A program made the translations under genes and the position numbers. A stretch of DNA of 64,000 bases, from positions 2,532,477 through 2,596,476 of the forward strand of contig NC_049993.1 of assembly GCF_000003815.2 (NCBI RefSeq). The letters are read 5' to 3'. The notes beneath the pieces were generated by a model. It worked only from the letters and a program-made list of their open reading frames with translations, did not search any database and was not told the DNA's origin. Each line of letters begins with the position of its first letter. Position 1 is the stretch's first letter. Shown here one piece after another: positions 16,701 to 36,310 of this stretch. Origin of the DNA: Branchiostoma floridae. Lineage: Eukaryota > Chordata > Leptocardii > Amphioxiformes > Branchiostomatidae.

Positions 16701-19700
16701 AGTACATGTATACTGTATGACATAAGAAAAACTGAAGTGAACTGATTACAAAAATGTAACATAAACTCAGTAAACAGAAGTAATGAGGAGGGGTCAGAGG
16801 TCAAAGGCTATAACATAAGTAACAAAACATCAATCGTTGAAACCATAAATAAAATAACCAAATGGGTGTAATTAACAAAGAAAATATCCACAACACAAGT
16901 CAATTATCTACATCATATCAACATACAAATTCGTCTACCACCAATCCTGCAAGGGTTTGTTTGTGTTGATTTTTGTCCGGATCCAATTCACAATGTGTGT
17001 TTTGAAAATGGAAGGTGAGGTTGCTTTCATTTGTGGTGGGAAGGTGTTATATGACTTGGTGCATCTATACAAGAAGGTCCTTGTCAAGGCCGCAGTTCTT
17101 GGCTTAGGTAATCTAAAACCACCACTTGTCGCAAGACGAGTGCTGTGCTCATGTCTGCTACTAATGTTTTCTAATCTGCTATACATAGCTCTAGGTTCCT
17201 TAGATACTAATAGCTTGTTGAACATAGAAAGAGTGCCTGTGTACAATCTTTCTTTAACTGTTGGCCATTGTAGTTTACTATGCATATAATCAATGTTCTC
17301 ATTATAGCGCGCATTAAGAATTAGTCTAGCTGCCCTATTTTGCAGAATCTGTAGCTTGTTCAAGGAGGTCTGAGGGCAGGCAGATAACAAGCAAGCACAA
17401 TAATCCAGATGGGATAACACTAGTGCCTGCGTCACCATCTTTAGCGGTCCATCCACAATCAGATGTCTAGATCTCTTAAGCATTGCTAGTGAACCAGTCA
17501 TCCTGTTCAGGACTTTGTCTGCTTGCTGTGTCCATGTTAAGTACTGATCTATAATGAAACCAAGTAGTTTTGCTTGAAATACTTGTTCAATCCTTTTGCC
17601 ATTCAAAGAAAGCTGTAACTCTGGGTTGCTCCTTAATCTGTGGCGACTTCCCATCAAAATCGATTTTGTTTTCTCCACATTTAATACTAATTTGTTTGCT
17701 TGTACCCAGTCCCATATATGGTTAAGTTCGGCCTGAAGTGTGTTTTGTATCATAGAGACATTTGGGCCAGAAGCGGAAGGAGTGGAGTCATCAGCATATA
17801 ACTCTATGTTACAGTGAGTTATAGCAGTGGGTAAATCATTAGTATATATACAAAAAAGTAATGGCCCCAAGCAACTCCCCTGTGGAACACCACTCAAGCA
17901 TTTCCTGTGTGATGAGACTCCACCGTTAACACTGACAGCCTGTGTTCTATCTGTCAGATAGCTGTTGACCCAATTGACCGCCGACTGGACAAACCCGTAG
18001 CTCTTTAGTTTGGCTAACAACACCTTGTGGTTTACCACGTCAAAGGCGGCGCTGAAATCCAAGAGCACTGCACCTACAAGATTCTGTTGATGGGATCTTG
18101 TGAGCATGTGTTCAATGCACCCCTGTACCAAATTTCAGGTCATTTGGTTTCTATACAAGGGCATACGAGCCGAAAATATACATTTTAGTCAAAAATGACC
18201 GAAAACCCAAAAATAACTCATTTTTGTAGTGATCTATGAAGAAAGTGATGATGGGTTCCTGTGCTCATATGTCCAATGCACCTCTGTACCAAATTCCAGG
18301 TCATTAGCTTGTAATACCAGGGCACAGGGGCCCAAAATATGCATATTTTGTCTAAAAATGACCAAAAACCCTAAATATCATAATTTCTAAGGCCTCTATC
18401 AAAAAAGTTAAAAAAAAAAAAACCTGGGGGTATTTGCTATTTCTACCACTCTGCCAAATTTCAGCTCATTTGGTCCCAAAATGAAAAAGTTGAATCAATT
18501 TAAAGATTTGACAGGAGAAGAAGAGACTAAGGAAAAACAATATATTGCAAATCCATACTGTAGTATGGATTGCAATATAATTACGAATACAATATATTTC
18601 ACCATACCTATGGTATGGCTGAAATATAAAAAATATACATTCTAACCTTCTTAAGTTAATTGCAACTGATCTTTAATAACAACTACCTCAACACAGTAAA
18701 CATAACAATTAAATGTTTGAAAATGACTCGTTAATCTATTTCATTGTTTTCTTCAATTTCTAAATTGAAAACATTTGCTTGCCTGTTTTAAAAGTATTGG
18801 AAGACAAAAATGGTACATCTTGTATTGTATATGTATATTTTCGTCATGTTGTCATAATCAAAAATTAACTTCTGTGATTTCGTTGTAGAGCGGCATCGTC
18901 CTGGTAGATACTCCAGGTGTAGACATCGTTTCCGGACAGGATCCGGATCCAGGTCTGTGGGAGGCTTACGGCACCCGCGCTGTGACAGCGGTGTTCGTAC
19001 TGGATGGTTATAACATGTGTGTCGGAAAAGAGGTATCTGTTGTTTTGAACCATTCGAAAATAATTTCATCCGTTTGGTAGGTCATAGGATAGTTTTCTTT
19101 TACACAACGAGGTAATCTTACCTGCTGACGTTCTGATGACTGTCAGATATCTTCCTAAAGCTAAGGGCACAAGTCACAATCAGCCGTACGTGCTTTTTGT
19201 CCGTACGTTTTTTGAGAGGTCAATTACGCCACTTTTTTTCTGAAAAACCTGGGGAAGAAATGGCAAGAGCAGGGAGGAAGTCCGTCACAACGCACGTCAC
19301 TCGCACGGTTGCGCAAGGTGTAAGTATTTGTGACCTGCACCCCATGCCTGGCCGTGAGCCGGTTGCGTGCCTCGTTCGTTGCGCAAGTGAGTTGCACGTG
19401 CGATCTCTGTGCGATTGCCACGTTACCGTATGCAGGCCCTACTTACACGTGCTGCGTACGTACAATGCCCTTACTCGCTGTACGGGGCACGCGCGTCGCC
19501 CGTACTGGCTCGTACGGGGGTTGAATCCGCAGCCCAATGCAGAGAAAGTTCTACGGCGTGTCTGTGTGCTCCCAAATCCGTTGTATTCTAAAAGATTGCC
19601 CACGTTTTGGCACGTAGATAACACGCAATTGAACGCAAGGCGGGTTGTGACCTTAGTTTTGAAGCTTCTTACTGTAGTTCTGCTTCTTGCTGCTATAACG

Positions 19701-22700
19701 GCGGCCGCCCCATCACTAGTTGCCAGAGAGTGGTCAAGTTTTGATCAATGAATCTTTAACACATTCATTTTAAGAACATACTCGGATAAGGAATGCATTC
19801 ATGTGGTCCATGAACCCTTCACCCTCCTAGTTACAAGTGGCAAACACTGAGGACGTTTTCGTGAATATAACTTTTGTGCTGCGCTAGACAGTGCGCCCTA
19901 ACTTGCCCCCTTTTGCAATTTTCTCTTTTCGGAAGCTGGTGACCATTTTAAATAACAACAAATACAAATTTTATTTCTATGATATATTGGCTTTCTTTTG
20001 AGAGTAGAATTTTGATTGTGTGTGCTTCTTGTCTCCCGCGAGGAGGGCTAAACCTTTCACCATCCAGGTCATGTTTTCATGGGAAATGGGTGAAATGCAC
20101 TAAATGCGGCGGCCCGACTAACAAAATCATTACGAAAAACGACAACGTCAAAATCACAAAAAAACTCTGCGTACGTATTGGGAAACATATTCGACCTCAC
20201 TCTGTGAAGTTTCATTTTTATAGACGGTACGAATCATTTCTTAGAGTAAAAAAATCTTTTGGGCGTTCGCTCGTCTGCCACCTGCGGGGCCACACTCCCT
20301 GGGGAAAACAACGGCGGTGATGCTTATGTTGTTTTTTCTATGGCCGGTCTTCTTCTCAACAAACATTTGAAGACCAATATTTGTAGTGTTTTGTGAAGCT
20401 TTAGTTCTTATGTGTATGACAGTTGTGTGACTGTTTTGTACTGGTTGTATATTTATGGACACGAGCCACCAATATCTAGTAACAGGTGACCACAGTGATT
20501 CGGCGCTACCAACATTATTGTGAAAATTCTGTCTTAAAAAAAAGGGAAGTGAATATGTGTTGATATTTATTTGATAGAAAAAAAGCTGTTTGTTTGGACT
20601 TGGTTTATTTACCTTTCTAATCATCATAGTCAGTGGCAACAAACACGGCATACTTATGCATAATATGATCGGCAAAAAATCCGGGCATCTTAGGACAGGG
20701 GGCATCTTAGGGCGGCCCCCGTTATGTAGCCGATGTAGGTAGCGCTTTGGCGGCGAGAAGGTCAGCAGATGAGATTAACTGGATGTGACTCTACTATCCT
20801 GTTATTTTTGTATTTATTACCCTTGGTTTCTAACTCTATTTTGTAAGTTTGGCATGTAGGAAAACTTAAATGGAAAAATGATATGCTGCAATATATTTTC
20901 TTATCATGGCCTGTTCTTTTGATGATATTATCTGTAAGAGTTAAAATCATAGACGAGCGAGGCATTTAATTATAAAAGCATGAAATGCCGATCAATTCTT
21001 ACAAAAGAAGTAGTAGTAGTAGTAGTAGCAGTAGTACATCCGGTTCACAACGGTTTGGTACAATACATAGTACAGTTTTTTTCCAGTATGATCTGTCATT
21101 AATGGCAGACACTAAAGCTGTCCTGACAGTCCACTGCAGTCTCTTTCTATCGTTCTAAAATATTGTACTATTACCAGTAAGAAAGACTATGTTTTGCCAC
21201 ATTACTCCATAACGTATACATATCTTTTCCCTCTCAGATACAGCCTCAGATCCACAACCTCATTAGGTCGTTCTCTACCATGCCAGACGAGGCAGCCATC
21301 TTCGCCATTAATAAGTGGGACTTCCTTGAGTGTCAATTGCTCGGGGAGTCCTCAAACGACAGTGACCAAGTTTTACAAGACGAATACAACAGAAGGTGCG
21401 ACTTTCTTAAGAAAGCCTGGCCACCACTTGCTGTGGACAACGCTGTGGACAACCAAGTCATCCGTCTAAAAGCAAAGCAAGCTCTCAGCTTGGAGCTTCA
21501 GGACAGCAAAGATGAAAAGACTAGTGACGACTGTACCAAACTCCTTTCATGCTTGGAGGGCGCCGTCAGTTCCAGTCTTGCTACTAGAGTGAAAGAGTAT
21601 ACCGAGTAAGTAAAATTTCTATTGTCAAAACACGGTCTATCAAGTCCACGTCATAGATTAGATCAGTTTCTGTGAAACCTATTGCAATGGCCTCTGAGGG
21701 AGTTGCACTATAGCTATTACATGCAGTTGACTTTGATTATTGATAGAGCGTCGATTCTTGGATATTGGAGACTTTTACATAACCAGTAAATATTTACTTT
21801 GTTTTCGTTTCAATGTTTATCAATCTTCTTCTTAGAGATTCTAAGTGGAGTTTTTGCCGCTGTATGTAGTCGATGTGTGTGGCGCTTTTGCGGTGAGGAG
21901 TGTTGACAAAAGCGCCACCTACTTCGGCTACATAAAGCGGAGAATAGCAGCACTCCAGTTGAATGCTCTGAGACATATCCACATGCAAGCATTTAATAGT
22001 TGTGTAAAAGAAATCTCCAATATTCTATATTCTACCAACGTAATTTCTGAACGGGCAACCTTGTTGTTTTCTACAGGTGGCTGCTGGAGTTTCTCAGAGA
22101 AATCAGCGAAATCCTAAGCCTCCAAACTGTTGAGCGATTCAAAGACGGCCTCCTGAAATGCGAGATTTGGCAAGATATTGTCGTCCAAATGAGGGGCCAG
22201 TTCAACATCGGTACCAAACATTTGGCCAGGAAGCTAAGAGAGTTCCTACAGACGAACAGAGAAGAGCTAGTGAGTAGCTGGAACCCAACGGAAGATCAGC
22301 TACGTGACATCAGCGGTTTTGATGATCTTGAAGCTCTCGTCAGGCATCTTGTTGTCGGGAAAATGCGTGACATCTTAAGGGAGTGGGAGAAGAAGACGAA
22401 GAGCATGAAGCAGTTTGAAGACAAGATCGTCTCCGAGTTCCAAGACCAGTTCTTCTTAGTGAAGAGTGAACTAGAACGCATTCTGCCGAAGAAAACTGAC
22501 GATGACGCACAACCTGCTATTCAACTGCCCACCATCGACAGTCATTTTGTCCTCCATGACATCATGTTCAAGTCTTTGCCAACAGGCATCGCAGCCATGT
22601 TAAATGCAATGTTATTTCCGTTCGCAATCGGGATGGGAGTACTTGGCAAGATACGCGAGAAAAAGGAGTACGCAGGAACCGGAGGAAACGAAGTTTTCGA

Positions 22701-25354
22701 CCAGCGTAGAGGGTATGTCCGACGAAAGCTGAACACAGTTCTAACAGAGGTGCTAAACAAACAGCTGTACTACAACATCATCAATGACTGCTGCCAGTCA
22801 ACACTGCACGTCGATGATTTGGCCAATCATATTCCTGAGATCAAGAGTTACCTTGAGAAGAAGATAGATGACATTGAACGGAACAACGACGACGACAACA
22901 ACCAGTGGACCTCCCGACTACCTGATGTTCGAACTGACGTGCTCCTTTTCAACGCCACGGAAGTGCGGTCATATTCCTTACAGGTCCCGAGAGACATCTT
23001 CTGGAATGGCAGGTAGGTCTGTTTTTCAAATTTTGTACAATTTAGCTTCTATGATTAGTCCATTTATTAATAAACACGTTTTTTTCTATTCGCGACTTTC
23101 ACACAGATATGCTTAAAATATATTATATTTGACACAGTATTAACTTTCTTTTAGGGATTTGATTGGAGAAGGGTCGTTAAGCAAAGTCTACAGAGGTAGA
23201 AGACTGACTAAGGACGGGCCAGATGTAGAGGTAGAGGTCTGCGTGCCGATGTCTTTGAAGGATGTTATCGAGGATTATCAACGCGAAGAAGAGATCCTCA
23301 CGTATGTACCATGTACAATGTTAAATGCTATCATTCATTTTTACAGAGAGCCGGGAAAATGTTATAAAGTAGAAAAGTATAAATGGGCACCCACAGCTAT
23401 TTTTTCTTATCTACTACTACAATAAAGACTTCGCAACTTAAAAACAAACTTATTATATTTACATAAGTTTCACCGATCACATCCTGCTGTATTTGCATAA
23501 CTAATTAACTACCCCCTCCTAAGTAAAGCAGGCGAGAAACACTGAATGTTTCACAGGGTTGTGACCTCTTCGTTGCAAATGTCTGTTTTATTTTCAGCAA
23601 GCTAAACGATGACTGCATTGTCAAGTTCTTCGGAAATGACTGCATTGTCAAGTTCTTCGGAACCGCCATTGACAGACACACTCAGTCTAGCACTGTGCAG
23701 TTGGTGATGGTGTTTGAGCGGTGTAACTGTACCCTGAGGGAGAAGCTCCAACAAATGCAAGAAGGGGGGCTCTCTGCTCCAGCCTCTTGCACTGGAGAAG
23801 ACAGAGCTGAGGTGAGGAACTGACATTCTTAAAACATATCAGTAATGATATTTCTTGACCTTTTCAATATCACCTCAAATCTACAAATCTACTATAACAG
23901 TCTCAGATAAATATGTGCAACTTAAAGGTTTTTATTCATTCAAAACGCGTTTATCCTTCCAAAGTGTTGATTTCGTTGTGTTTTACAGGCCCTGCTGTTT
24001 GCTGCAGATATGGCGAAACAGACTGCACGTGCTTTGTGCTATCTACATGGCAAGAAACTCGTGCACGGGGACCTAAACCTTGACAACATTTTTGTAAGAA
24101 CGTTTCCCTTTTGTTCTCATTCCCCAGCACAGGAAAAAAATCTTTATACCGCAAACACCAAGTGATACCGATAGCTGTTATCAAGTTGAGTATTTGGGAA
24201 AATTCAAGTCCACATGTGTACATTGCACCATTTTCCTGTTACCCCATATCTAAGAGCTACATGTATATGGTAATAACATGCAGACTTCAGTTCGGGTAAC
24301 TGCTAGATCTTCCCAGCAATATCATTGAAGCTGTATCGTAATTTTTTTGCGTTTTTGTTGCTTTCAAGCTGGCTCAAGACGACAATCCTGACAGGTTGAC
24401 ACTTAAACTGGCCTATAGTGAAGTGGGCATTGTCAAATGCGAGCGATTTCGGAAACAGGAGACTGGCGCTGAAGCTCCAGCAGCTCGCCTTTACATGGCC
24501 CCAGAAGTGTTGATGAAGTCTGCCTCCGATAGGTAATTCATATTCTTTCTCACCACTAGCAGGCGGGAAGGGAAGATAACGCGAATGCAGTTGGAAAGTA
24601 GCCAAGTTTGACAATGCGATGAAAATATATTTAGACAAATGCTACATAACTGTAGTTGTAACAAGTTATGAGTGTTTTAGTGTGGTTTGATTATATCGAT
24701 GACATCCGCCCGCGCATCAATTAAAAAAAAAAATGAATAAAACTTTTCAACCATACTGTAAATGGTACCAAGCAACCTCAAAATAATCGCCGTGTATTGC
24801 TAAAACAAATACTGGAAAACGTATGCTAATTTCATTGAAAACTTTAGGTCAAAGAAGATGTGAAAGAATAAAAATGAAGAATGTCATCCATATAATCAAA
24901 TCAACATGACTTAAGCTGTAAATGCCGATGGGTACGAAGGTGCTAATTAGAGAGATCTTAACCAAACCTAGAGGCATTGAGATTTGGACAGGGAAGATAT
25001 GTACACCAAACCTTTCATGAGGATCATACAACAATACATAGTTTACATAGTCATTTCCTATGTATTATTTCTTTTAGAAAAGTGGACATGTACAGCTTCG
25101 CCTTTGTCCTGTGGGAGCTGTGGTACGGCAGGCAGGCGGACCATGGTAATGGCCTCAGCGATGACGATTTCTGCTCGGAAGTTGTGCAAAGGAAACTTCG
25201 GCCAGCCCTGACAGAAGATCTACCTTCTGACTGGATGACTTTGATCCAGAGATGTTGGGAAGGAGAAGCCAATATGCGACCCACTGCTGAGGAATGCTTA
25301 AACAGCATTGCAAAAATCATCTGTGCAGCTGGTTCTCAAAATGTTGACATGTAA
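10437..25354 (+). CDS. DED - dynamin-like GTPase - degenerate kinase protein (DSTYK-like), 13 exons
   Basis: Exons that join in one frame: 10437-10713, 11210-11328 (or -11335), 12980-13193 (or from 12987), 14165-14332, 14963-15129, 18889-19032, 21238-21605, 22077-23012, 23155-23301, 23598-23811, 23989-24093, 24369-24532, 25078-25354. They sum to 3,300 nt, about 1,099 residues plus TAA. Order seen: a death-effector-like helical domain (residues 1-90), a dynamin-type G domain with GAHTSGKS (204-211), DTPG (322-325) and NKWD (388-391), a long helical region with a hydrophobic stretch near 653-676, then a protein kinase fold (from about 799) ending at the stop. The kinase half lacks several catalytic residues. 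GTPase plus kinase in this order resembles DSTYK and its invertebrate relatives; the DED at the front suggests adaptor or death/innate signalling. Family role is inference; the exon joins are read from splice sites and phases. The start has a good context (ACAATGG). Confidence 0.85.
11210..11328 (+). CDS. Exon 2: polar linker
   Basis: Acceptor CGTCAG just before 11210; joins exon 1 in phase. Encodes about 40 Ser/Thr/Gln/Glu-rich residues with no domain, a flexible linker between DED and GTPase. Two donors are possible: GAA|GTGCAA at 11328/11329 (phase 0, fits the AG at 12979) or CAAG|GTGTAA at 11335/11336 (phase 1, fits a second AG ending at 12986). Confidence 0.6.
11340..12975. other. Intron 2 of the GTPase gene; no element resolved
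   Basis: About 1.6 kb with nothing clearly classified. Repeated text AGTGCCCTAAAG near 11855-11880. If neither alternative splice for exons 2/3 is real, a small unseen exon would have to lie here. Confidence 0.3.
12980..13193 (+). CDS. Exon 3: lead-in to the GTPase P-loop
   Basis: Encodes a helical segment (KLFGLFQATLTHISDNPAF) and the first beta strand YPVVFL leading to the P-loop; donor G|GTATTG at 13194. The codon of the first P-loop glycine is split by the following intron, which also contains the 100-N gap at 13287-13386. The start is 12980 or 12987 depending on the donor chosen for exon 2; both keep the frame. Confidence 0.75.
13287..13386. other. Assembly gap (100 N)
   Basis: Run of N inside the intron between exons 3 and 4 of the GTPase gene. 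Confidence 0.99.
14165..14332 (+). CDS. Exon 4: G1/P-loop of the dynamin-like GTPase
   Basis: Acceptor CACTGCAG before 14165. Together with the last base of exon 3 it encodes LGAHTSGKSTMINMLLG, a complete GxxxxGKS/T Walker A motif followed by a helix as in the dynamin/septin-like superfamily. Donor CTTG|GTACGT. Confidence 0.85.
14963..15129 (+). CDS. Exon 5: GTPase switch I region
   Basis: Acceptor AAATCAG before 14963, donor AAG|GTATGT at 15130. Encodes a variable insert (YPIPPLVNDEEANTIL) and a strand ending YDKVEVYWPADFLK, which in dynamin-like proteins directly precedes the G3 strand. No unambiguous G2 threonine can be picked out by eye. Confidence 0.8.
15208..15962. mobile_element. Repetitive element, tandem copy A
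   Basis: Starts CTAGAAAGGCCGACATTTGC with a small hairpin (ATTTGCT..AGCAAAT) and ends ATTTGACAGGAGAAAGAAAG. In between is a degenerate unit that repeats ACCAAATTTCAGGTCATTTG, GAGCCAAAAAT and AAAATGGCCAAAAA. The next copy begins at once. Class unknown; no coding. Confidence 0.6.
16575..18088 (-). mobile_element. 5'-truncated LINE (CR1/L2-like reverse transcriptase)
   Basis: Minus strand. 3' tail is (AAAC)n at 16577-16600 preceded by AATAAA; 5' truncation lies inside the reverse transcriptase. Inserted in an intron of the GTPase gene, opposite strand, inside repeat copy B. No clear target duplication. Confidence 0.85.
16935..18088 (-). CDS. Reverse transcriptase fragment, C-terminal two thirds
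   Basis: Intact frame to TAG at 16935. Motifs: VGAVLLDFSAAFDVVNH (RT motif A), SGVPQGSCLGPLLFCIY (B), ELYADDS (C, catalytic YADD), then VEKTKSILMG and LGFIID, and a long C-terminal thumb. The frame stays open upstream to 18131, but those first 14 or so codons belong to the host repeat, not the LINE. N-terminal fingers and endonuclease are missing, so it cannot move by itself. Confidence 0.88.
18541..18630. repeat. Two adjacent perfect or near-perfect hairpins
   Basis: ATATTGCAAATCCATACT/AGTATGGATTGCAATAT at 18541-18579 and ATATTTC.CCATAC/GTATGG.GAAATAT at about 18595-18630, right after repeat copy B. Function unknown. Confidence 0.75.
18889..19032 (+). CDS. Exon 6: G3 motif (DTPG)
   Basis: Acceptor GTTGTAG before 18889, donor GAG|GTATCT. 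Encodes SGIVLVDTPGVDI, the G3 motif with the preceding hydrophobic strand, then AVTAVFVLDGYN, the next core strand. 48 codons, phase 0 at both ends. It lies beyond a 3.8 kb intron filled with repeats and a LINE insertion. Confidence 0.88.
19161..19656. mobile_element. Possible CpG-rich MITE in intron 6
   Basis: Left end CTAAGGGCACAAGTCACAA and right end TTGTGACCTTAG are roughly inverted; the interior is rich in CGTACG and unlike the flanks. The 184-codon open frame over it has no domain. No clear target duplication. Confidence 0.35.
19660..21237. other. Intron 6 remainder; AGT microsatellite, otherwise nothing
   Basis: Trinucleotide (AGT)n at about 21009-21030. No exon-like segment seen between exons 6 and 7. 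Confidence 0.4.
21238..21605 (+). CDS. Exon 7: G4 motif (NKWD) and helical extension
   Basis: Acceptor CTCTCAG before 21238, donor GTAAGT at 21606. Contains AAIFAINKWDFLE, the G4 guanine-specificity motif, followed by an amphipathic region with YNRRCDFLKKAWPP and a long charged helix, as expected for the end of a G domain entering a stalk. Confidence 0.88.
22077..23012 (+). CDS. Exon 8: stalk-like helical region with hydrophobic segment
   Basis: The largest exon (936 nt), acceptor CTACAG, donor GGCAG|GTAGGT. Encodes about 311 mostly helical, charged residues. A hydrophobic stretch (SLPTGIAAMLNAMLFPFAIG, around 22573-22632) interrupts it and could be a membrane-contacting paddle or hairpin, as in other dynamin-like proteins; that role is inference. 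Confidence 0.85.
23155..23301 (+). CDS. Exon 9: kinase glycine loop, VAIK lysine missing
   Basis: Acceptor TTTTAG before 23155, donor CAC|GTATGT. Encodes LIGEGSLSKVYRG (GxGxxxxV loop, residues 800-812) and then VEVEVCVPMS where the VAIK-type strand should be; no lysine sits at the ATP-anchoring position. The acidic YQREEEIL helix could supply the alphaC glutamate. Confidence 0.82.
23598..23811 (+). CDS. Exon 10: kinase beta4-beta5/hinge, with a 27-bp internal duplication
   Basis: Acceptor TTTTCAG before 23598, donor GAG|GTGAGG. Encodes the CIVKFFG strand twice in a row (23608-23634 and 23635-23661 differ at one base), then a hinge-like LVMVFERCN followed by a helix. A normal kinase has this strand once, so the copy adds nine residues between alphaC and the hinge. 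Confidence 0.8.
23989..24093 (+). CDS. Exon 11: catalytic loop, HRD changed to HGD
   Basis: Acceptor TTTACAG before 23989, donor TTT|GTAAGA. Encodes ARALCYLHGKK and LVHGDLNLDNIF. The catalytic aspartate (residue 946) and Asn951 are kept, but HRD reads HGD and the usual lysine two residues later is Asn. Confidence 0.85.
24369..24532 (+). CDS. Exon 12: activation segment, DFG missing, APE kept
   Basis: Acceptor TTCAAG before 24369, donor GATAG|GTAATT. Where K-x-A-D-F-G is expected the sequence reads LKLAYSEVGIVK, so the magnesium-binding Asp is absent. The APE motif is intact (LYMAPEVLM). Confidence 0.85.
25078..25354 (+). CDS. Exon 13: kinase C-lobe and stop
   Basis: Acceptor CTTTTAG before 25078. 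Encodes VDMYSFAFVLWELWYGR (subdomain IX) and IQRCWEGEANMRPTAEECL (subdomain XI with its arginine), so the C-lobe is structurally complete. TAA at 25352-25354. Confidence 0.88.
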
Positions 25355-27440: not shown

Positions 27441-27909
27441 TATGAAGCAAACTAAAATAAAATCAATGAGAATATAAGGTACCGGTACTGCGGGCGTTAG
27501 AAGCCTATGAAACGTGTTTTATTTTACTCAGAATTTGGCAATATCAAATTTTTACGGGGCTGTTTTAGGCTGTTCATTGTTGTGTTTGTGTGGCTAAATT
27601 ATTCTCTGAAGATCAGCGAAATACAACGAAACATAAGTGAGATAAGAAAGTAAGGACTAAAATTCAGTTACTGGTGGGTGATGGATAAATATCGGGGGTG
27701 GTCACGCCGATTCCACGCTCCTGCTGATATAAGTTTAAAAGTGTCCTTACCGAGTAGATCTACAATATTTTTTCATCCAAAAGACTCTATAGATATATTT
27801 CCGTCAACTCTGATTTATATCGGGTTGCCTTTTTACCTTAATCTTGGATATTTTGACGAATTTATGATTTTCCGTGAACCCAAGCCAACCCAAGCCAACT
27901 TCGGACGCC

Positions 27910-29310
27910 ATGACCGACCCAAGCGCTCACGAGGATTTGTACTCTGTACTTGGTGTATCTTCTTCGGCAACTCCTGATGACATTGTGGAGGCGTACAAAA
28001 GGGAGGTCAAGCTGTACGAGAACGCGTCTAAACTCGGCAGAAGTAAGCAAGCGTCCAAAGAAGCTTTGACAAGATACAAGGAGGTAAGCAGATCGTTCAG
28101 TATACTATCCGACGTGCCCCGAAGACAACGGTATGACAACAGCGGCTCTGTAACTGTCCCTACCAAAATCACAAAGAAGTCACGCAAACAGTCCGCAGAC
28201 TACTGCATTAACCAGAATGAGCAAAGTGTCACGATATTTTTACCCCCGAACCTTGCAACCTCTTGGCTCTCCAAGTGCGAAGAACATCACTCAACCCGAG
28301 CAACGAGAAAGGCACCGGTAAATAACCGGGTAGTAAAGGGCAAAGTCCCTGACAATGGCCACCAGATCAAAACTGTGTTCACAGATACCCAATCTAAAGA
28401 CATCGTAGGTTCTGTCAGTATCACGATCTATGAATCTACAAACAAGATTCTAGTTCAGGGTTCCGCTTATCTGTTGTGGTTCACGGAAGTATTCCCTGTT
28501 CTAAAAGAGGCAATTGACACTGCGTGTACCGACAAGGCTCTGACAGAATCGGAAGAACCCAGTTTAGTTGTATCGTTGAACACAGCAGAAAGCCCCCCCT
28601 TGTGCTCAGTATGTGAACAACCTATGATGGCTGACGTTTGCGACTCGTGTGAAACTGTGCCTAAAGTGGTGCTAGACTGCAACAGTAATAATTTGCGTCC
28701 TGTTGAACTTGAGGAAACGATAGAAGACACAAGTACTCCTCACAGCCATATCACGGCTAACAAGTCCACTCCCGTCATCCCTGCCGACTATTCTATTCTT
28801 CAGGAAAATGTGAACAAACTGGAATCTTGTCTTGTTGAGTCTATCTCAGTCCAAAAAAACTCTGAGACCTCAATCCTGCAAAGACTGTCTTTACTGGAGG
28901 ACAGGCTGAAAGCCCGTGAACAAAACCATGTCTGTGACAGACTATCTGCCCTTGAGAAAAGGAAACTCTTAGAGGATGTTGCGCGTTTGGAAAGTGTCAA
29001 ATGTGAGCTCGAGAATCAAGTTCAGTCACTTAAACGCAAATATGACGAGCTGTCAAGCGCTATGCAGAAGGTTCAATTGTCGGGTTCACGCGGTCAGACA
29101 AAATCGACAGAGACGCAAACCACCCAGGAGGCTTCAGATCGCGCCGACAAATTATTGTATGAATTGGCTAATGTCAGCGTCAGCAACAGATTTCAAGTTC
29201 TAGATGAGCACAACAATAAGAACAGCCCCGACAATACATTTTCAAACCCCGGTGCAAAACGCCGTCGCCAAGCACACAAAACAGGCGCGAACGTGTCTCC
29301 CGTTCAGTGA
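27910..29310 (+). CDS. LINE ORF1, N-terminal part: J-domain-like, Zn motif, coiled coil
   Basis: ATG at 27910 (the open frame extends to 27874 through a non-ATG start). Residues 7-80 fit a J-domain: EDLYSVLGVSSSATPDDIVE, AYKREVKLYE, YKEVSRSFSILSD, RRQRYDNSG. The HPD tripeptide is replaced by residues of the LYENASKLG loop, so it should not stimulate Hsp70. A later NKILVQGSAYLLWFTEVFP segment is typical of invertebrate LINE ORF1 proteins. Then comes a CxxC-x8-CxxC motif (28603-28650), a coiled coil (about 28790-29090) and a basic tail. The TGA at 29308 is supplied by the inserted TRIM, not by the LINE. Likely an RNA-binding or assembly protein; role inferred. Confidence 0.75.
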   Translation: MTDPSAHEDLYSVLGVSSSATPDDIVEAYKREVKLYENASKLGRSKQASKEALTRYKEVSRSFSILSDVPRRQRYDNSGSVTVPTKITKKSRKQSADYCINQNEQSVTIFLPPNLATSWLSKCEEHHSTRATRKAPVNNRVVKGKVPDNGHQIKTVFTDTQSKDIVGSVSITIYESTNKILVQGSAYLLWFTEVFPVLKEAIDTACTDKALTESEEPSLVVSLNTAESPPLCSVCEQPMMADVCDSCETVPKVVLDCNSNNLRPVELEETIEDTSTPHSHITANKSTPVIPADYSILQENVNKLESCLVESISVQKNSETSILQRLSLLEDRLKAREQNHVCDRLSALEKRKLLEDVARLESVKCELENQVQSLKRKYDELSSAMQKVQLSGSRGQTKSTETQTTQEASDRADKLLYELANVSVSNRFQVLDEHNNKNSPDNTFSNPGAKRRRQAHKTGANVSPVQ

Positions 29311-29360
29311 AACAACCAGAGGGGCGAGTAAGAACAGAAAGAAACAACACCCCGACTCCC

Positions 29361-29430
29361 GGGATTCGAACCCGCGCCAAACCCGGGCAGCCGGATCACA
29401 AATCGAACGTGCAAACCGTTCGGCCATAAA
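29361..29430 (-). ncRNA. tRNA-like pol III boxes in LTR copy 1
   Basis: Minus strand: A-box-like TGGCCGAACGG (29426-29416) and B-box GGGTTCGAATCCC (29373-29361). The acceptor and anticodon stems do not pair well, so this is tRNA-derived rather than a working tRNA gene. Confidence 0.55.
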
Positions 29431-29641
29431 GGCTTAAGCCGTTAGGCGTCTTCGGTTTAGCAGTCCTTGAACACCACTGTTACACTACTCCCCCTTTTCT
29501 TTTCAAGATTCGTCCTCGAATCTCCGAGATCGACATCCCTGTGTGGCACATACTAGCCTGTTAATCACAGGGCCGGCGTGGGAACCAGTGAAACAACCAG
29601 AGGGGCGAGTAAGAACAGAAAGAAACAACACCCCGACTCCC

Positions 29642-29711
29642 GGGATTCGAACCCGCGCCGAACCCGGGCAGCCGGATCACAAATCGAACGTGCAAACCGT
29701 TCGGCCATAAA
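29642..29711 (-). ncRNA. tRNA-like pol III boxes in LTR copy 2
   Basis: Second copy of the same A-box and B-box, at equal spacing, inside 29589-29765. Confidence 0.55.
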
Positions 29712-29769
29712 GGCTTAAGCCGTTAGGCGTCTTCGGTTTAGCAGTCCTTGAACACCACTGTTACATCAG

Positions 29770-30885
29770 GACAAAGCGGAATACAGGATCTCTGAATCAA
29801 CAATCACACAGCATCAGCATTGTAAAGACATGCCGCCGGATGTGTTAATCTTGGGTGACTCCAATACAAAGCCAATCAAGCCAGACGTCATGTATCCAGA
29901 CAAACGCGTAACAAAAGAGATAACCTACAACATAACACAAGCTACAGACCACATCCAACAATCAACCATGCCCGCGCCCAAAGTTATTCTGTTTAATGTT
30001 GGAACAAACGATGTCAGAGACAAGCGGAATCCAACGGATGTTACTGAGAGTTTTCGAAAACTCATTCAGACTGCCCACGATAAGTTCCCGCACACTCCCC
30101 TAGTTTTCTCCGCCATTCCCCCCAGACGTGACTCTAAACTACAAGAAATTGGCGAACAGGTGAACTCTTTCCTGAACGTCGTAGCTGAAGAGACAAGCTA
30201 CGTACACGTTACGGACAACAGCAACCTGTCGAACATGGGGACGGTCAAGGAAGCTTTGTATTGCGCAGATGGTTACCACTTGAACAGGTTCGGAACCCGT
30301 GTGATGGTTTCTAACATCAAAAGAGTGGTTAATCCCATCATAGGTCTGGGTAACTACACCAGCAAGGGCACAAGGGAAAACTTCCAGTCAACCCAGGGTC
30401 AACGTGCCGCGCCTCCAAGATTCACCCAGCATCCTGCAAATGGTCAGAGGCACCCCCCACGTGCTCCCAGGGCCGGAGATTTCCCGCCAACTGAAGATTT
30501 CCCACCAACTGAAGGTCAAGGCCTTCTCCCAAGTGCACCTGCAACAAGCCAACGCTCAGCTGTTCTGTCCGGGTGTGCTCCCGGGACCTCAACAGCCAGT
30601 TCGTCCTCGGGACAACCAGATGGCCCACCTCGTGGTACCCCATCCCCGACACCGCCCGGTCGTCCTGTCGTGTTCGGCGCACCTGCAAGAGACGCCCGCC
30701 CAATGCCAAGTCAGCGACCGGGACCATGGAGGAGCCCGCCTCCCATCTTCAACTACCCGCCTGCGCCATGGGGCTTTCCAGTTCCACCTCCGAACAATCC
30801 TACTATGGCAAATGCACCTTCCCGCGTGGCCCCGCCGCCTTGGCCCTGGCATCCAGCCCTGATGTGGCCGCCGATGGTGTGGTAG
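29770..30885 (+). CDS. LINE ORF1, C-terminal part: SGNH/GDSL hydrolase
   Basis: In frame with 27910-29307 once the 462-bp TRIM plus duplication is removed; the first internal ATG is at 29830. SGNH blocks are visible: LILGDSNTKP (Ser nucleophile), FNVGTNDVRD (GTND) and CADGYHLNRFG (catalytic Asp-His). A Pro-rich tail of about 150 residues follows. Esterases of this type occur in ORF1 of CR1-group LINEs; substrate unknown. Confidence 0.82.
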   Translation, partial: DKAEYRISESTITQHQHCKDMPPDVLILGDSNTKPIKPDVMYPDKRVTKEITYNITQATDHIQQSTMPAPKVILFNVGTNDVRDKRNPTDVTESFRKLIQTAHDKFPHTPLVFSAIPPRRDSKLQEIGEQVNSFLNVVAEETSYVHVTDNSNLSNMGTVKEALYCADGYHLNRFGTRVMVSNIKRVVNPIIGLGNYTSKGTRENFQSTQGQRAAPPRFTQHPANGQRHPPRAPRAGDFPPTEDFPPTEGQGLLPSAPATSQRSAVLSGCAPGTSTASSSSGQPDGPPRGTPSPTPPGRPVVFGAPARDARPMPSQRPGPWRSPPPIFNYPPAPWGFPVPPPNNPTMANAPSRVAPPPWPWHPALMWPPMVW

Positions 30886-31161
30886 GACAAGCATAGATTA
30901 CTTAGTACCTTGTTGTACTGTCTTATAAGAGTGAAAATATACTACAATTGTAAGTTAGCATGAAATCAATGTATAATCAGTTGTAGTCCTTTGTTTACCA
31001 TTTCTAGAATCCGTAGAATTTTGAGAATAACCCTTTAAAGACGTACGTATTTAGTTAGTCCCCACTTTAGTTAAATATATCTCTTACAAACATGTTGTTA
31101 GATATTGTGTGCTCGGTTAAGGACACCGCTTTACTTATACTCACTGTTTTCTCTATTCGCA

Positions 31162-32436
31162 ATGAAAGCGTTTAACGGTGGAGGAAGCAAGAGCTTTGGC
31201 TTTTGGAATATCCATGGCCTAGGCTCAAAATTAGAAGACGAAGAATTTTTGGCAAACATAAACAAATTTGACTTCTTTTCGCTTTTAGAGACATGGTCCA
31301 CAAATAACACTAAAATAGACGTCCCAAACTACAGCCACTTCCATTTACACCGAACAAAAAGTAGACGCGCAAGACGCACTTCTGGAGGCATAATCTTTTT
31401 CTACAGAAACGCATACAAAAATCATGTGAGGAAACTTCCGTCTAAGTCCTCTGATATACATTGGGTGAGAATAGATCGCGAATTATTAGGATTACCAAAA
31501 GACTTATTCATCTGTTCTGTTTATATAAGCCCGAGCTCTTCCACCACACACAAAAACTCTGATAACCATGTATTAGACATTTTGGAAAACGAGATTTCTA
31601 AATACAGCACACAGGGATTCTTACTTCTCGGGGGGGATTTAAACGCTCGTCTTGGTAATCTACGAGATTACGTAGACTGCGACATTGAAGATGACAAGAA
31701 TCAATTTGTAAATTCAAAACACCACTCAGATAGACAGCATATGGATAAAGCACCACCAAACAAATTTGGCAGACTAATCTGTGACCTGTGCATCCAAGCT
31801 AACCTGTCCATATTGAACGGTAGGGTAGCCTGCGATCTACAGGGAAATTTCACCTGTCATCAACCGAAAGGCAGCAGCACTGTAGATTATATCATTTCTA
31901 GTCAGCCCTTCTTAAAACACATTTTAACGTTTCGTGTAAATCCATTAACCATATTCTCCGACCATTGCATGCTGTCAGTACTCATTCACTCAAAATCTGC
32001 CCATCACAATGTCCAAGAAAATCGTAGAACCACTAATGCAAAACCATCGCCAAATCGATTTAACTGGAACGAAAAATCAGCTCACAGTTTTCTACATTCT
32101 CTAAGTCAACCCAACATCTTACAAAGATTACAAACCATTTCACTGGAAAACATTACTAATGCGACCGCTCCAGCCCAAACAGAAAACATTGTCTCCAAAT
32201 TTAGCTCATTACTAAGAGATGCTGGTCACAATTGTTTGAGTTTGAAAGGACAAAGAAAACATCCACGGAAAAAACAAAACAAAAGATGGTTCGATAAAAC
32301 CTGCATACAAATGAAACGTGAAATAAAAAACCTGGCAACATTGCTTGAAAAACATCCATCTAACCCAGAAATAAGAGGACGGTTCTTAAAAACGAGAAAA
32401 GACTACAAAAAAATGGTAAAAAAGAAAAAAACGTGA
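31162..32436 (+). CDS. LINE ORF2, endonuclease part
   Basis: ATG at 31162. AP-endonuclease motifs in order: SFGFWNIHGLGS (Asn), FSLLETW (Glu), CSVYISP (Tyr), LLGGDLNARLG (Asp-Asn), SSTVDYIIS and IFSDHCMLS (SDH). The frame ends at a TGA just after a run of seven A near 32430. Losing one A there would join it to the reverse transcriptase, so this is a frameshift in one ORF2. Confidence 0.88.
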   Translation: MKAFNGGGSKSFGFWNIHGLGSKLEDEEFLANINKFDFFSLLETWSTNNTKIDVPNYSHFHLHRTKSRRARRTSGGIIFFYRNAYKNHVRKLPSKSSDIHWVRIDRELLGLPKDLFICSVYISPSSSTTHKNSDNHVLDILENEISKYSTQGFLLLGGDLNARLGNLRDYVDCDIEDDKNQFVNSKHHSDRQHMDKAPPNKFGRLICDLCIQANLSILNGRVACDLQGNFTCHQPKGSSTVDYIISSQPFLKHILTFRVNPLTIFSDHCMLSVLIHSKSAHHNVQENRRTTNAKPSPNRFNWNEKSAHSFLHSLSQPNILQRLQTISLENITNATAPAQTENIVSKFSSLLRDAGHNCLSLKGQRKHPRKKQNKRWFDKTCIQMKREIKNLATLLEKHPSNPEIRGRFLKTRKDYKKMVKKKKT

Positions 32437-32452
32437 CTTCCACCAACAAATA

Positions 32453-34282
32453 ATGAACCAACTATCTTCACTCAGAGAAAGAAACCCGACTGCGTTCTGG
32501 AACTTATTGAACAAGTTGAAACCAGAGAAAGTGTCTGGGAGTAGCCAAATATCAGAGGAGGACTGGTTACAGCACTTTAGTAACCTTGACAAACACTTAC
32601 TAAATGGTTCCTGTAACATAGACGCTTCAACCACCGAAACCGTAGACACATCCCTTTCAAATACAATCCCAATGGAGAGCTCCATATTAGACTCCCTTAT
32701 AACTGAGAAAGAATTGGACACCGCTTTATCAAATTTAAAAAACAAAAAATCTAGTAGTGGCGACATGATCAATAATGAAATGTTAAAATGTGGAAGACAT
32801 ATTCTAAAGAAACCACTTCTACATCTTTTCAATTCCTGTCTACAAAATAGTTACTTCCCTAAAGAATGGTCCCTAAGTCATATTGTACCCATTCATAAAT
32901 CCGGGGACACTTCTGTCCCAGACAACTATCGGGGAATCTCAATAATTAGTTGTCTGGGAAAACTATTCTCATCTATTTTGAATACCCGTCTTGTCAATTA
33001 TGCAGAACATTACAGCCTTTTCAAACCACAACAGGCCGGTTTTAGAAAGAACTTTAGAACAACTGACAACCTTTTCGTATTATCCACCTTAGTCAGTAAA
33101 TATCTGAGCAAAAACGCACGACTTTATGCCTGTTTCGTAGATTTTAGCAAAGCGTTTGACTCGGTTTGGAGAGAAGGCCTTTTACTGAAATTAAACAAAC
33201 TTGGATTAGGGGGGAAATTTCTACTCACTATAAAAGACATGTATTCCAAAACAACAAATTGTGTTAAAACTAGCCACGGTCTTACCGATACTTTTGTAAC
33301 TAACTGTGGGGTTCGACAAGGCTGTAATCTTAGTCCAACTTTGTTTAATTTATTCATAAGTGATTTACCAGATGTGTTTAATGACCATTCCTGTAACCCT
33401 CCTATATTGCACAATAAGAAAGTGTCATGTTTATTATATGCAGATGACCTGGTACTTTTGTCTGAATCTCAACAGGGTCTGCAAACTTCTCTAAGTAGAT
33501 TAGAAAATTATTGTGAATCATGGAAGTTAAATGTTAATCTAAAGAAAACTAAAGTCATTGTATTTACGAAAGGTGGCCGCCTACCAAAAGACTGCCTTTT
33601 TCTATATAATAGACATGTAGTAGAAATTGTTACAAATTATTGCTATCTGGGCATTGTTGTAAATTCAGCTGGCACGTTCAAGGCAAATAACAAATATCTA
33701 CACAGCAAAGGCCTGAGAGCCCTCAATGGAATCAACCAGTCCCTTGGCAAAGCCGACGCTTCTATATCCATAAGAAGCAAACTATTTGACACATGCGTGA
33801 AACCTATTTTGTTGTATGGTTCGGAAATATGGGGTTCATTCAAAACTCCAAAATCATCCCCAATTGAAACTATCCATTTAAAATTTTGTAAACAATCATT
33901 GAATGTCCCCAGATCCGCCTGTAACCTGGCCGTAATGGCAGAACTGGGAAGACACCCTCTTAAACTAGAAGCATCCCTTAACGCCATCAAACAGTATATT
34001 AGAGTACGCCAGAACGTGCCAGCTGATAGTCTGTCTGCAGACGCCCTTTTGTGCCAACTGGAGCTAGACACATTAGGCGCTAAATGCTGGGCTTCTGGAG
34101 TCCGCAAGACGCTAGAGGAATGTGGTTTTGGCTATGTCTGGCACTCTCCCATATCATCTGTCCTAAATCCATCACAAATAATTCCATCCATCGACCAACG
34201 TTTAAAAGATATGTACCTCCAATCTTTCGTAACAGCAATGCGCAGCAACAACAAATTACTTTTCAACATACAGATTACTTAA
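32453..34282 (+). CDS. LINE ORF2, reverse transcriptase part
   Basis: RT motifs: QAGFRKNFRTTDNLF, CFVDFSKAFDSVWR (A), CGVRQGCNLSPTLFNLF (B), CLLYADDLVLLS (C, catalytic), VNLKKTKVIVF (D) and YLGIVVNSAG (E), then a long C-terminal region with ILLYGSEIWG. The first ATG here is internal; the true reading comes from the endonuclease frame. A second frameshift near 34265 ends it early. Confidence 0.9.
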   Translation: MNQLSSLRERNPTAFWNLLNKLKPEKVSGSSQISEEDWLQHFSNLDKHLLNGSCNIDASTTETVDTSLSNTIPMESSILDSLITEKELDTALSNLKNKKSSSGDMINNEMLKCGRHILKKPLLHLFNSCLQNSYFPKEWSLSHIVPIHKSGDTSVPDNYRGISIISCLGKLFSSILNTRLVNYAEHYSLFKPQQAGFRKNFRTTDNLFVLSTLVSKYLSKNARLYACFVDFSKAFDSVWREGLLLKLNKLGLGGKFLLTIKDMYSKTTNCVKTSHGLTDTFVTNCGVRQGCNLSPTLFNLFISDLPDVFNDHSCNPPILHNKKVSCLLYADDLVLLSESQQGLQTSLSRLENYCESWKLNVNLKKTKVIVFTKGGRLPKDCLFLYNRHVVEIVTNYCYLGIVVNSAGTFKANNKYLHSKGLRALNGINQSLGKADASISIRSKLFDTCVKPILLYGSEIWGSFKTPKSSPIETIHLKFCKQSLNVPRSACNLAVMAELGRHPLKLEASLNAIKQYIRVRQNVPADSLSADALLCQLELDTLGAKCWASGVRKTLEECGFGYVWHSPISSVLNPSQIIPSIDQRLKDMYLQSFVTAMRSNNKLLFNIQIT

Positions 34283-34799: not shown

Positions 34800-35627
34800 A
34801 TATACATTTTCAGAATGAGGCAAGATTGTAGCGTTGTTGTTGTATTTGGGTGGCTTCTGTTCTCCCAAGATGGGAGCGCCGCATGCAAATGACCTGCGAT
34901 TGTTTACGTCTAATAGAAGTCCGGTCAGGAAGGATATGCTAATAAACTGCTGCCCCACGAGCATAACAGCTCCCTTCAACAGGGCCCACAACATGGTTTT
35001 CTGGAGACTGGAGACATATCTTCTTGCTCGTTCACGACAACAGAAAAGCTGTGAAAGGATAGACATGTATACATTGTACCAAGGAGTTTTTTTCACGTTG
35101 TACCATGAGTATTAATCATTTTGCGGGGAAAAATGGCCAACGTGAGGAATTTGTGCAAAGGATATTGGGAAACTACGGAGAGATCTGGCGGGCGACTCAC
35201 GTCTCCCGTGCAGGTTCGGCAGAAAAAGTCTTTGGAACCAGGCCCCAAATTGAAATCAACGCGGTGTCCCGATAGCCCGGGGCCACTTATAATTTAGGCC
35301 GGGACCACTAGAAAACGACTGTGTGACATTTTTGGGACCGTAGAAAATAACCTACACCAGAATGTCAACCCGTCAAACGTTTTTCTAGCGCGCTACTCAT
35401 CCGGCTTTCAACCCCCCCCCCCCACTAATTTGATCTGTGACAGCCCGCGTGGGAACCCGGGACGCACTGATTCGTGACTCCGCCCATCGCCTTTGATTTG
35501 TATTTAGCTATTTCCACGCGTGCACATTCCCGCCGGTTCGCCGTTGAACCATTGGAGCTCTAGGAATTTCGTGGAACAAGCCACAAAATACAAAAATAAA
35601 GTCCGTTTCAAATGCATTTGCCGATCA
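34800..35627. other. Interior of the long-TIR element right of the LINE; no gene
   Basis: About 830 bp between the LINE tail and the right TIR. No transposase motif or long domain-bearing frame seen; includes a C-run near 35410. Confidence 0.4.
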
Positions 35628-35689
35628 CAGTACCATTACCTTATATTTCCATCGATTTTATTTCACTTCGCTTCATACTTCGTTCCTTT

Positions 35690-35952
35690 TCGTTCCTTTT
35701 CGCACTTTCGGTACTTTCCTTTTCGTTCCTTTTCGTTCCTATCCAATCTTTTCGTTCCTTTTCGTTCTTTTCGCACTTTCGGTACTTTCCTTTTCGTTCC
35801 TTTTCGTTCCTTTTCGCACTTTCGGTACTTTCCTTTTCGTTCCTTTTCGTTCCTTTTCGTTCCTTTTCGTTCCTTTTCGTTCCCTTTCGCTCCTTTTCGT
35901 TCCTTTTCGTTCCTTTTCGCTCCTTTTCGTTCCTTTTCGCACTTTCGGTACA
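35690..35952 (-). repeat. CGAAAAGGAA minisatellite, right TIR (inverted)
   Basis: About 25 units reading TTCGTTCCTT on the plus strand with CACTTTCGGTAC interruptions. Inverted relative to 27336-27440. Open frames across it on both strands are repeat artefacts. Confidence 0.9.
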
Positions 35953-35953
35953 C

Positions 35954-36310
35954 CGGACGAGAGCAGAACTTCCGTGTGATATCGCGGAGGGAGATCCATA
36001 CGGCCGGTTCTACGTTAGTACTACATGTACGGTGATGGTGGCCAGGCCGCTGGACTGGTCAGTACAGTCCGAGTATATCCTCAAGATTCATCTCGGTCGG
36101 CTTCAAGATCCGTGTTACTTTGTCGCCCGTCTTCAGGTAAACGTGACGCACGTTTCGGGCTATCCACCTGTGTACAACGAGACGTGTGAAACGCCGGTCA
36201 TACCTCCTGGGGAGGCGTATGACAGATTCCTTTTCGGTTTGACCGAAACTTTGACGTTTAGTCTTGAAGATGACGTCTACGGGAGATATGGATATGTTGT
36301 TCGGAAGTAG
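35954..36310 (+). pseudogene. Cadherin-repeat-like remnant, right part
   Basis: Frame encodes AELPCDIAEGDPYGRFYV, TVMVARPLDWSVQSEYIL and ARLQVNVTHVSGYPPVY, ending in TAG at 36308. The layout matches a cadherin EC repeat (G.F.., LDRE..Y.L.V, DVNDNPP.F), but the calcium-binding LDRE and DVNDN motifs are lost (LDWS, THVSGYPP). It shares the 10-bp duplication with 27320-27329, so both parts were once contiguous. A weak similarity of unrelated origin is possible. Confidence 0.45.

Follow-up and report, generated by a model that had tools for sequence, protein, structure and literature searches.

How does a mobile element with no room for a protein of its own come to carry tRNA-type promoter motifs in both of its terminal repeats, and by what route is such an element copied and inserted? 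The question is raised by a 458-bp element in a 64-kb stretch of the Branchiostoma floridae genome, the whole of which we refer to as the window. An earlier note, made from the letters of this stretch alone, had described a miniature LTR element (TRIM) with 177-bp TG..CA LTRs differing at one position, a TCAG duplication and a 104-bp interior, all of which were borne out by repeat comparison. The primer-binding-like tract and the polypurine tract that it had also proposed could both be placed, as the primer-binding site (PBS) and the polypurine tract (PPT) listed below, and the complement of the PBS, CCGGCGTGGGAACCA, corresponds to the 3′ end of a tRNA. All functional marks of the element reside on the minus strand, a point absent from the earlier note, and on that strand they are arranged in the order LTR, C, TGGTTCCCACGCCGG (PBS), interior, AAAAGAAAAGGGGGAG (PPT), TAG, LTR. 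The features are as follows, in window coordinates.

27874..30885, plus strand: LINE ORF1, interrupted by the element; 849 codons to the stop once the element and one TCAG are removed
29304..29307, no strand: target-site duplication TCAG, left copy
29308..29484, minus strand: 3′ LTR, 177 bp, one mismatch relative to the 5′ LTR (repeat comparison)
29352..29441, minus strand: degenerate tRNA-Ser-like region of the 3′ LTR (relaxed ARAGORN threshold)
29362..29372, minus strand: B box of the 3′ LTR
29416..29426, minus strand: A box of the 3′ LTR
29485..29588, minus strand: interior, 104 bp, with no room for a retrotransposon protein
29488..29503, minus strand: PPT AAAAGAAAAGGGGGAG, followed by TAG and the 3′ LTR
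29573..29587, minus strand: PBS TGGTTCCCACGCCGG, 1 nt past the 5′ LTR, pairing with the tRNA-Glu 3′ end (CCGGCGTGGGAACCA)
29589..29765, minus strand: 5′ LTR, type A, 177 bp, TGTAAC...TTTCA (repeat comparison)
29633..29722, minus strand: degenerate tRNA-Ser-like fold of the 5′ LTR, LTR nt 44–133 (relaxed ARAGORN threshold only)
29643..29653, minus strand: B box GGTTCGAATCC of the 5′ LTR, LTR nt 113–123
29697..29707, minus strand: A box TGGCCGAACGG of the 5′ LTR, LTR nt 59–69
29766..29769, no strand: target-site duplication TCAG, right copy

When the empty site is reconstructed by removing the element and one TCAG, the ORF1 frame of the host LINE runs unbroken across the junction, which fixes the boundaries of the insertion exactly. 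The LINE itself (27874–34282, plus strand) has an unusual composition: its ORF1 starts with a DnaJ-like domain (PF00226, E = 1.2e-8, residues 21–88) in which the HPD motif is, by eye, substituted, and continues through a coiled-coil-like stretch, likewise recognized by eye, into an SGNH/GDSL esterase domain, while ORF2 comprises an endonuclease and a reverse transcriptase. No mention of a "J-domain" or "DnaJ domain" in such a LINE was found in the literature searched. Elsewhere in the window there is a second reverse transcriptase ORF (16935–18131, minus strand) and two ORFs (22189–23016 and 35612–36310, both plus strand) with no Pfam match; a PDB search with one window ORF returned no match.

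The promoter-like motifs are distributed with considerable specificity. A motif scan agrees with the proposed A and B boxes in sense orientation, sense being the minus strand: within the element, each LTR holds one A box and one strict B box, on that strand only. No other strict B box lies on either strand of the 64-kb window, in which only these two LTRs show the A-to-B arrangement. By its sequence, the tRNA likeness of the LTR is degenerate. ARAGORN with its default settings finds no tRNA in the LTR, and the Rfam matches (E up to 10) include no tRNA family, consisting of weak tmRNA hits to the T arm plus three others at chance level; at a relaxed ARAGORN threshold, the LTR adopts a degenerate, class II tRNA-Ser-like fold.

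The 513-Mb assembly that contains the window harbors a whole family of such elements. A search with the LTR yielded at least 41 matches (40 of 1084 first-look candidates scored), and an 18-nt word from the LTR 3′ end has 309 exact copies, compared to 0 for its reversed control; these numbers set the element apart from chance. A word spanning the PBS and part of the interior has 240 exact places (control, 0). We examined 50 distinct insertions, counting L062 and L065 as the single element that they are. Both termini are visible in 44 insertions, and 38 of these 44 are flanked by an exact 4-bp duplication, the exceptions being L015, L022, L032, L054, L064, and L066. Eight of the 50 are solo LTRs, seven of them with an exact 4-bp duplication, and four are tandem arrays of the form LTR-interior-LTR-interior-LTR. 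L057, at first taken for a 5′-truncated copy, carries an internal deletion instead. Since all of these copies were drawn from the top of ranked lists, the sample is biased toward young copies, and both divergence and proportions are to be read with this bias. The dispersed copies, 4-bp duplications, and solo LTRs establish the family as a dispersed TRIM rather than a duplicated SINE. Thus, the TRIM with tRNA-type boxes that the earlier note proposed is supported by structure and by copy number alike, and a duplicated SINE devoid of solo LTRs, the outcome named there as its refutation, is excluded.

At least three LTR types occur among these elements. Type B (167 bp), found in L032, has at least 42 genomic matches (40 of 972 scored), and type C (175 bp) was found in L071. 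Types A, B, and C all start with TGTAACAGTG and are identical over their last 42 nt, with the first 15 nt common to A and B, and their cores differ. Type B is devoid of an 11-nt stretch that is present in A and C, where a long variable arm would lie. The strict B box is present in all three types, and the A box is exact in type A, has one mismatch in type C, and is poor at the expected place in type B. Mixed elements, namely, C-interior-A in L038 and C-tRNA-B in L071, show recombination among LTR types. Among near-full type A LTRs, the A and B boxes are each intact in 55 of 57, a count that weighs little as evidence given that the copies are near-identical. Neither AATAAA/ATTAAA nor TATAWA occurs in the LTRs of the three types. 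We also considered a missing TTTT as a sign of pol III selection and dropped it: TTTT is absent from type A, an absence that is not significant (shuffles with none, 0.06 for the LTR and 0.10 for the unit), and types B and C have one each.

Which tRNA primes the family was read from two sources, captured primers and genomic tRNA genes, both of which name tRNA-Glu as the partner of the PBS and so answer the earlier note's call for the tRNA that matches the element. The capture of primers became apparent at L032, where the LTR is followed, instead of the interior, by TGGTTCCCACACCGGGAATCGAACC..., which is complementary to the greater part of a tRNA-Glu, its CCA included. Four such loci (L023, L032, L066, and L071) were among those fetched for their LTRs without regard to tRNA. 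A dedicated search, whose query joined the LTR 3′ end to one tRNA in one orientation, found no fewer than 39 places (40 of 960 candidates scored) at which the LTR end runs into 39 nt or more of tRNA-Glu complement. The 24 of 39 captures that we examined, comprising the 23 best-ranked and L066, all hold 55–75 nt of mature tRNA-Glu-CTC starting at the post-transcriptional CCA. The copy reaches tRNA nt 1 in six (L023, L073, L076, L077, L078, and L080), 15 are free of substitutions (L090 among them, with an indel), and A58 is covered and unchanged in all 24. Set against the 240 ordinary interiors counted by exact word, captures amount to about one in seven, a rough ratio since the two counts were made differently.

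What follows the captured tRNA is varied. In some captures it is an LTR entered at an inner point, an interior, or the start of an LTR; in four (L074, L076, L086, and L089) it is only the last 8–29 nt of an LTR, in L085 it is inverted element sequence, and in eight (L073, L078, L079, L082, L083, L088, L091, and L092) it is non-element sequence. Composites with both ends visible are flanked by an exact 4-bp duplication in 7 of 10 cases (L023, L071, L074, L076, L086, L087, and L089; the exceptions are L032, L066, and L080), some of these duplications having been read by eye. Among the non-element captures with comparable flanks (L073, L079, L082, L083, and L088), none of five has a 4-bp duplication. 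Two further ideas were dropped. The exact junction in L023 had suggested LTR nt 34/35 as a transcription start, which was rejected as the jump points are scattered in 20 more captures, and a captured primer as the source of the tRNA-like LTR core was rejected because the captured tRNA is antisense and the core is sense.

The tRNA-Glu genes of the genome were located with a word from the tRNA-Glu D arm, which has 62 exact places (control, 0), 24 of which coincide with junction places. Twenty loci were fetched from the other 38. Five of these (L106–L110) encode tRNA-Glu-CTC and match the captured tRNA exactly, but no CCA is encoded and a run of T follows the gene; six (L094, L100–L103, and L112) are tRNA-Glu-TTC genes ending in CCGGCATGGGAA; one (L097) ends in CCGGCACGGGA; and the remaining eight are degenerate or additional captures. 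None of the 20 fetched loci is a gene ending in CCGGCGTGGGAA, an isodecoder known here from captures L113 and L114 only. Within the family, the PBS occurs in variants that fit several different tRNA-Glu isodecoders: by hand count, the first 100 of the 240 places comprise 53 CACGCCG, 25 CATGCCG, and 22 CACACCG. In 29 interiors, pairing the PBS variant with the letter 9 nt downstream gives CGG-T 11 times, CGG-G 5, TGA-T 3, TGA-G 7, and others 3, so that both main PBS variants are found with both downstream letters. These combinations fit either a PBS that would be rewritten by its primer or recombination. Two observations count against rewriting, namely, that the tRNA match of the PBS ends after approximately 14–15 nt and that, according to the available text of PMC5371799, the change of a mutant primer was not found in the PBS of Ty1/Ty3.

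Captures are also found in other LTR elements. Near-complete tRNA-Glu with CCA follows the LTR in L113 and L114 (both LTR_G; on C2 and C13) and in L115 (on C5), which has another LTR with an AATAAA; primer read-through is therefore not specific to the TRIM. At L116 (C5:2881250–2882150), a diverged TRIM-like LTR with a tRNA-like core is followed by a full-length tRNA-Glu with CCA at 93% identity, and the several substitutions in this tRNA suggest that some captures may be old. LTR_G, a putative Gypsy element, has LTR ends and spacing, as well as a PBS class and a PPT, similar to those of the TRIM. In L006, one LTR_G copy starts with TGTAAC after GGGGGAGGTAG and the other ends with ATTTCA, each terminus being known from one copy; the LTR end is followed by 1 nt and a degenerate tRNA-Glu PBS, TGGTTCCTACACTGG. 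LTR_G also carries an AATAAA signal, and in the L113 capture the copy switches to integrase core sequence (rve, E = 1.8e-6; a 53-residue piece whose 28.6 bits lie below the cut-off of 32.6). From its termini, PBS, AATAAA, tRNA-Glu capture, and integrase fragment, we infer that LTR_G is a candidate helper of the TRIM; none of the copies read was an intact partner. At L006 (C10:6246375–6249551), a TRIM lies antisense between two LTR_G copies that are 96.7% identical; the last 3 nt are missing on one side and part of the stretch is masked. This arrangement was rejected as proof of a Gypsy helper, as an antisense TRIM at the LTR–LTR boundary can be an ordinary insertion.

Taken together, we favor, with a probability of roughly 85%, a Helenus-type TRIM that is transcribed by pol III, primed by tRNA-Glu, copied by Gypsy proteins, and inserted by integrase, some copies of which contain the captured primer. 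Pol III would transcribe the element from the A and B boxes inside the 5′ LTR, as the motifs themselves lead us to infer, and tRNA-Glu at the PBS primes reverse transcription, as the captured primer copies show. The proteins would be supplied by a Gypsy element that resembles the TRIM in LTR ends and spacing and in PBS class and PPT. Integration is of the integrase type, as the 4-bp target-site duplications show. In a sizeable minority of copies, the plus strand would pass its usual stop at m1A58 into the primer tRNA and jump to another template, and the composite would then integrate.

Other readings account for parts of these data. That the 177-bp unit is a stand-alone tRNA-derived SINE, tandemly duplicated at this site, would agree with its A and B boxes and its lack of space for a protein. 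However, the known duplications of LINE-driven SINEs are longer than 4 bp, and seven of the eight solo units have exact 4-bp duplications. Unlike SINE2, a stand-alone unit with neither LTR-type termini nor integrase-type duplications, the units here have TG...CA ends, a PBS and a PPT in place, and captures of the tRNA primer immediately past the LTR, all of which makes this reading scarcely credible. The LTR–tRNA junctions could alternatively mark TRIM insertions beside tRNA genes or template jumps onto free tRNA, since some LTR elements target pol III genes and template jumping is frequent in reverse transcription; moreover, a junction search with one orientation and one tRNA could not have revealed other kinds of junction. 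Against this, the captured tRNA begins at CCA, which is absent from the five matching genes; it sits exactly at the PBS position and antisense, as predicted for a primer, in all 24 captures; and four captures were already among the loci fetched regardless of tRNA. We regard this explanation as very improbable, and favor capture of the primer itself. A joining of strong-stop DNA to primer tRNA was reportedly proposed in the 1990s as the origin of SINEs; its terms do not occur in the review PMC3747384.

A stronger challenge concerns transcription rather than architecture. The TRIM might be driven by pol II from its LTR, its tRNA-like boxes being the functionless remains of a decayed SINE insertion, as the degenerate tRNA fold and the lack of a good A box in type B could be taken to imply. 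Nonetheless, the strict B box is kept in all three LTR types despite their differing cores, the LTRs are devoid of AATAAA and TATAWA, and both boxes are intact in nearly all type A LTRs, near-identical copies that make this last point a weak one. Furthermore, the available text of Kojima (2024; PMC10886601) describes conservation around both boxes across Helenus families. We therefore deem pol II transcription rather unlikely, and retain the pol III-transcribed, tRNA-Glu-primed TRIM as our working model.

Why the primer should be copied at all is addressed by work on HIV-1, where, in the available text of PMC13191261, the plus strand mainly halts at m1A58 of the primer and, on an unmodified tRNA, continues as far as the 5′ end of that tRNA. 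We lean toward the view that tRNA-Glu-primed LTR elements of this genome often fail to stop at m1A58, such that the plus strand would copy the primer, jump, and integrate, leaving a germline record. In the same text, m1A58 is described as low in tRNA-Glu(UUC) isodecoders that another virus packages, and an under-modified tRNA-Glu is accordingly a reasonable candidate cause of the captures. The captured primers name the primer tRNA directly, with no experiment needed, and record a reverse transcriptase that would have read through A58 without error in all 24 captures examined. They imply that products thought unusable can become integrated and, if this is true, that the genome contains scattered tRNA-Glu copies, complete or nearly so, in which the CCA is encoded. 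They also make it possible to test whether the fate of a whole group of LTR elements depends on the under-modification of a single tRNA, and suggest how such elements may give rise to new tRNA-like loci. No earlier description of genomic copies with captured primer tRNAs was found among the titles and abstract openings listed by the literature searches, which covered mostly sources other than subscription journals.

Among known systems, the closest is Helenus, which the available text of PMC10886601 (Kojima, 2024) describes as TRIMs whose LTRs contain sequence derived from tRNA, known from fungi, one plant, and six animal phyla. Animal Helenus elements have 4-bp duplications and likely a Gypsy-like helper; their primers include tRNA-Glu in some bivalve families, tandem copies are given for LTR-11_DR, and that text shows no pol III transcription of Helenus. 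The amphioxus element shares TRIM size with two LTRs and no coding sequence, sense-strand A and B boxes in both LTRs (with a tRNA fold at the relaxed threshold only), a PBS complementary to a tRNA 3′ end beside the 5′ LTR, a PPT ahead of the 3′ LTR, 4-bp duplications (38 of 44 exact), and tandem copies. By the features described in that text, it is a new member of the Helenus type, and extends Helenus to one more genome. It differs in having at least three LTR cores with common ends that recombine, and in its captured primer tRNAs, between LTRs or past an LTR, of which the available text makes no mention. The earlier note had looked instead to plant Cassandra and held that a tRNA-based counterpart in an animal would be notable; with Helenus described in 2024, it is not a first. 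Cassandra, whose tandem arrays are the topic of PMC7215508 as far as its available text goes, likewise places a pol III promoter module within the LTR of a miniature LTR element. There, however, the module is 5S rRNA and the hosts are plants, whereas an Rfam search of the amphioxus LTR (E up to 10) returned no 5S family. Finally, the captures resemble the HIV-1 plus-strand product P1, whose synthesis continues through the primer tRNA up to its 5′ end, the tRNA being unmodified in that case. According to the available text of PMC13191261, this full-tRNA product is not counted among the usable templates and belongs with those unable to serve strand transfer; in contrast, the corresponding products in amphioxus would have been fixed in the genome after template jumps.
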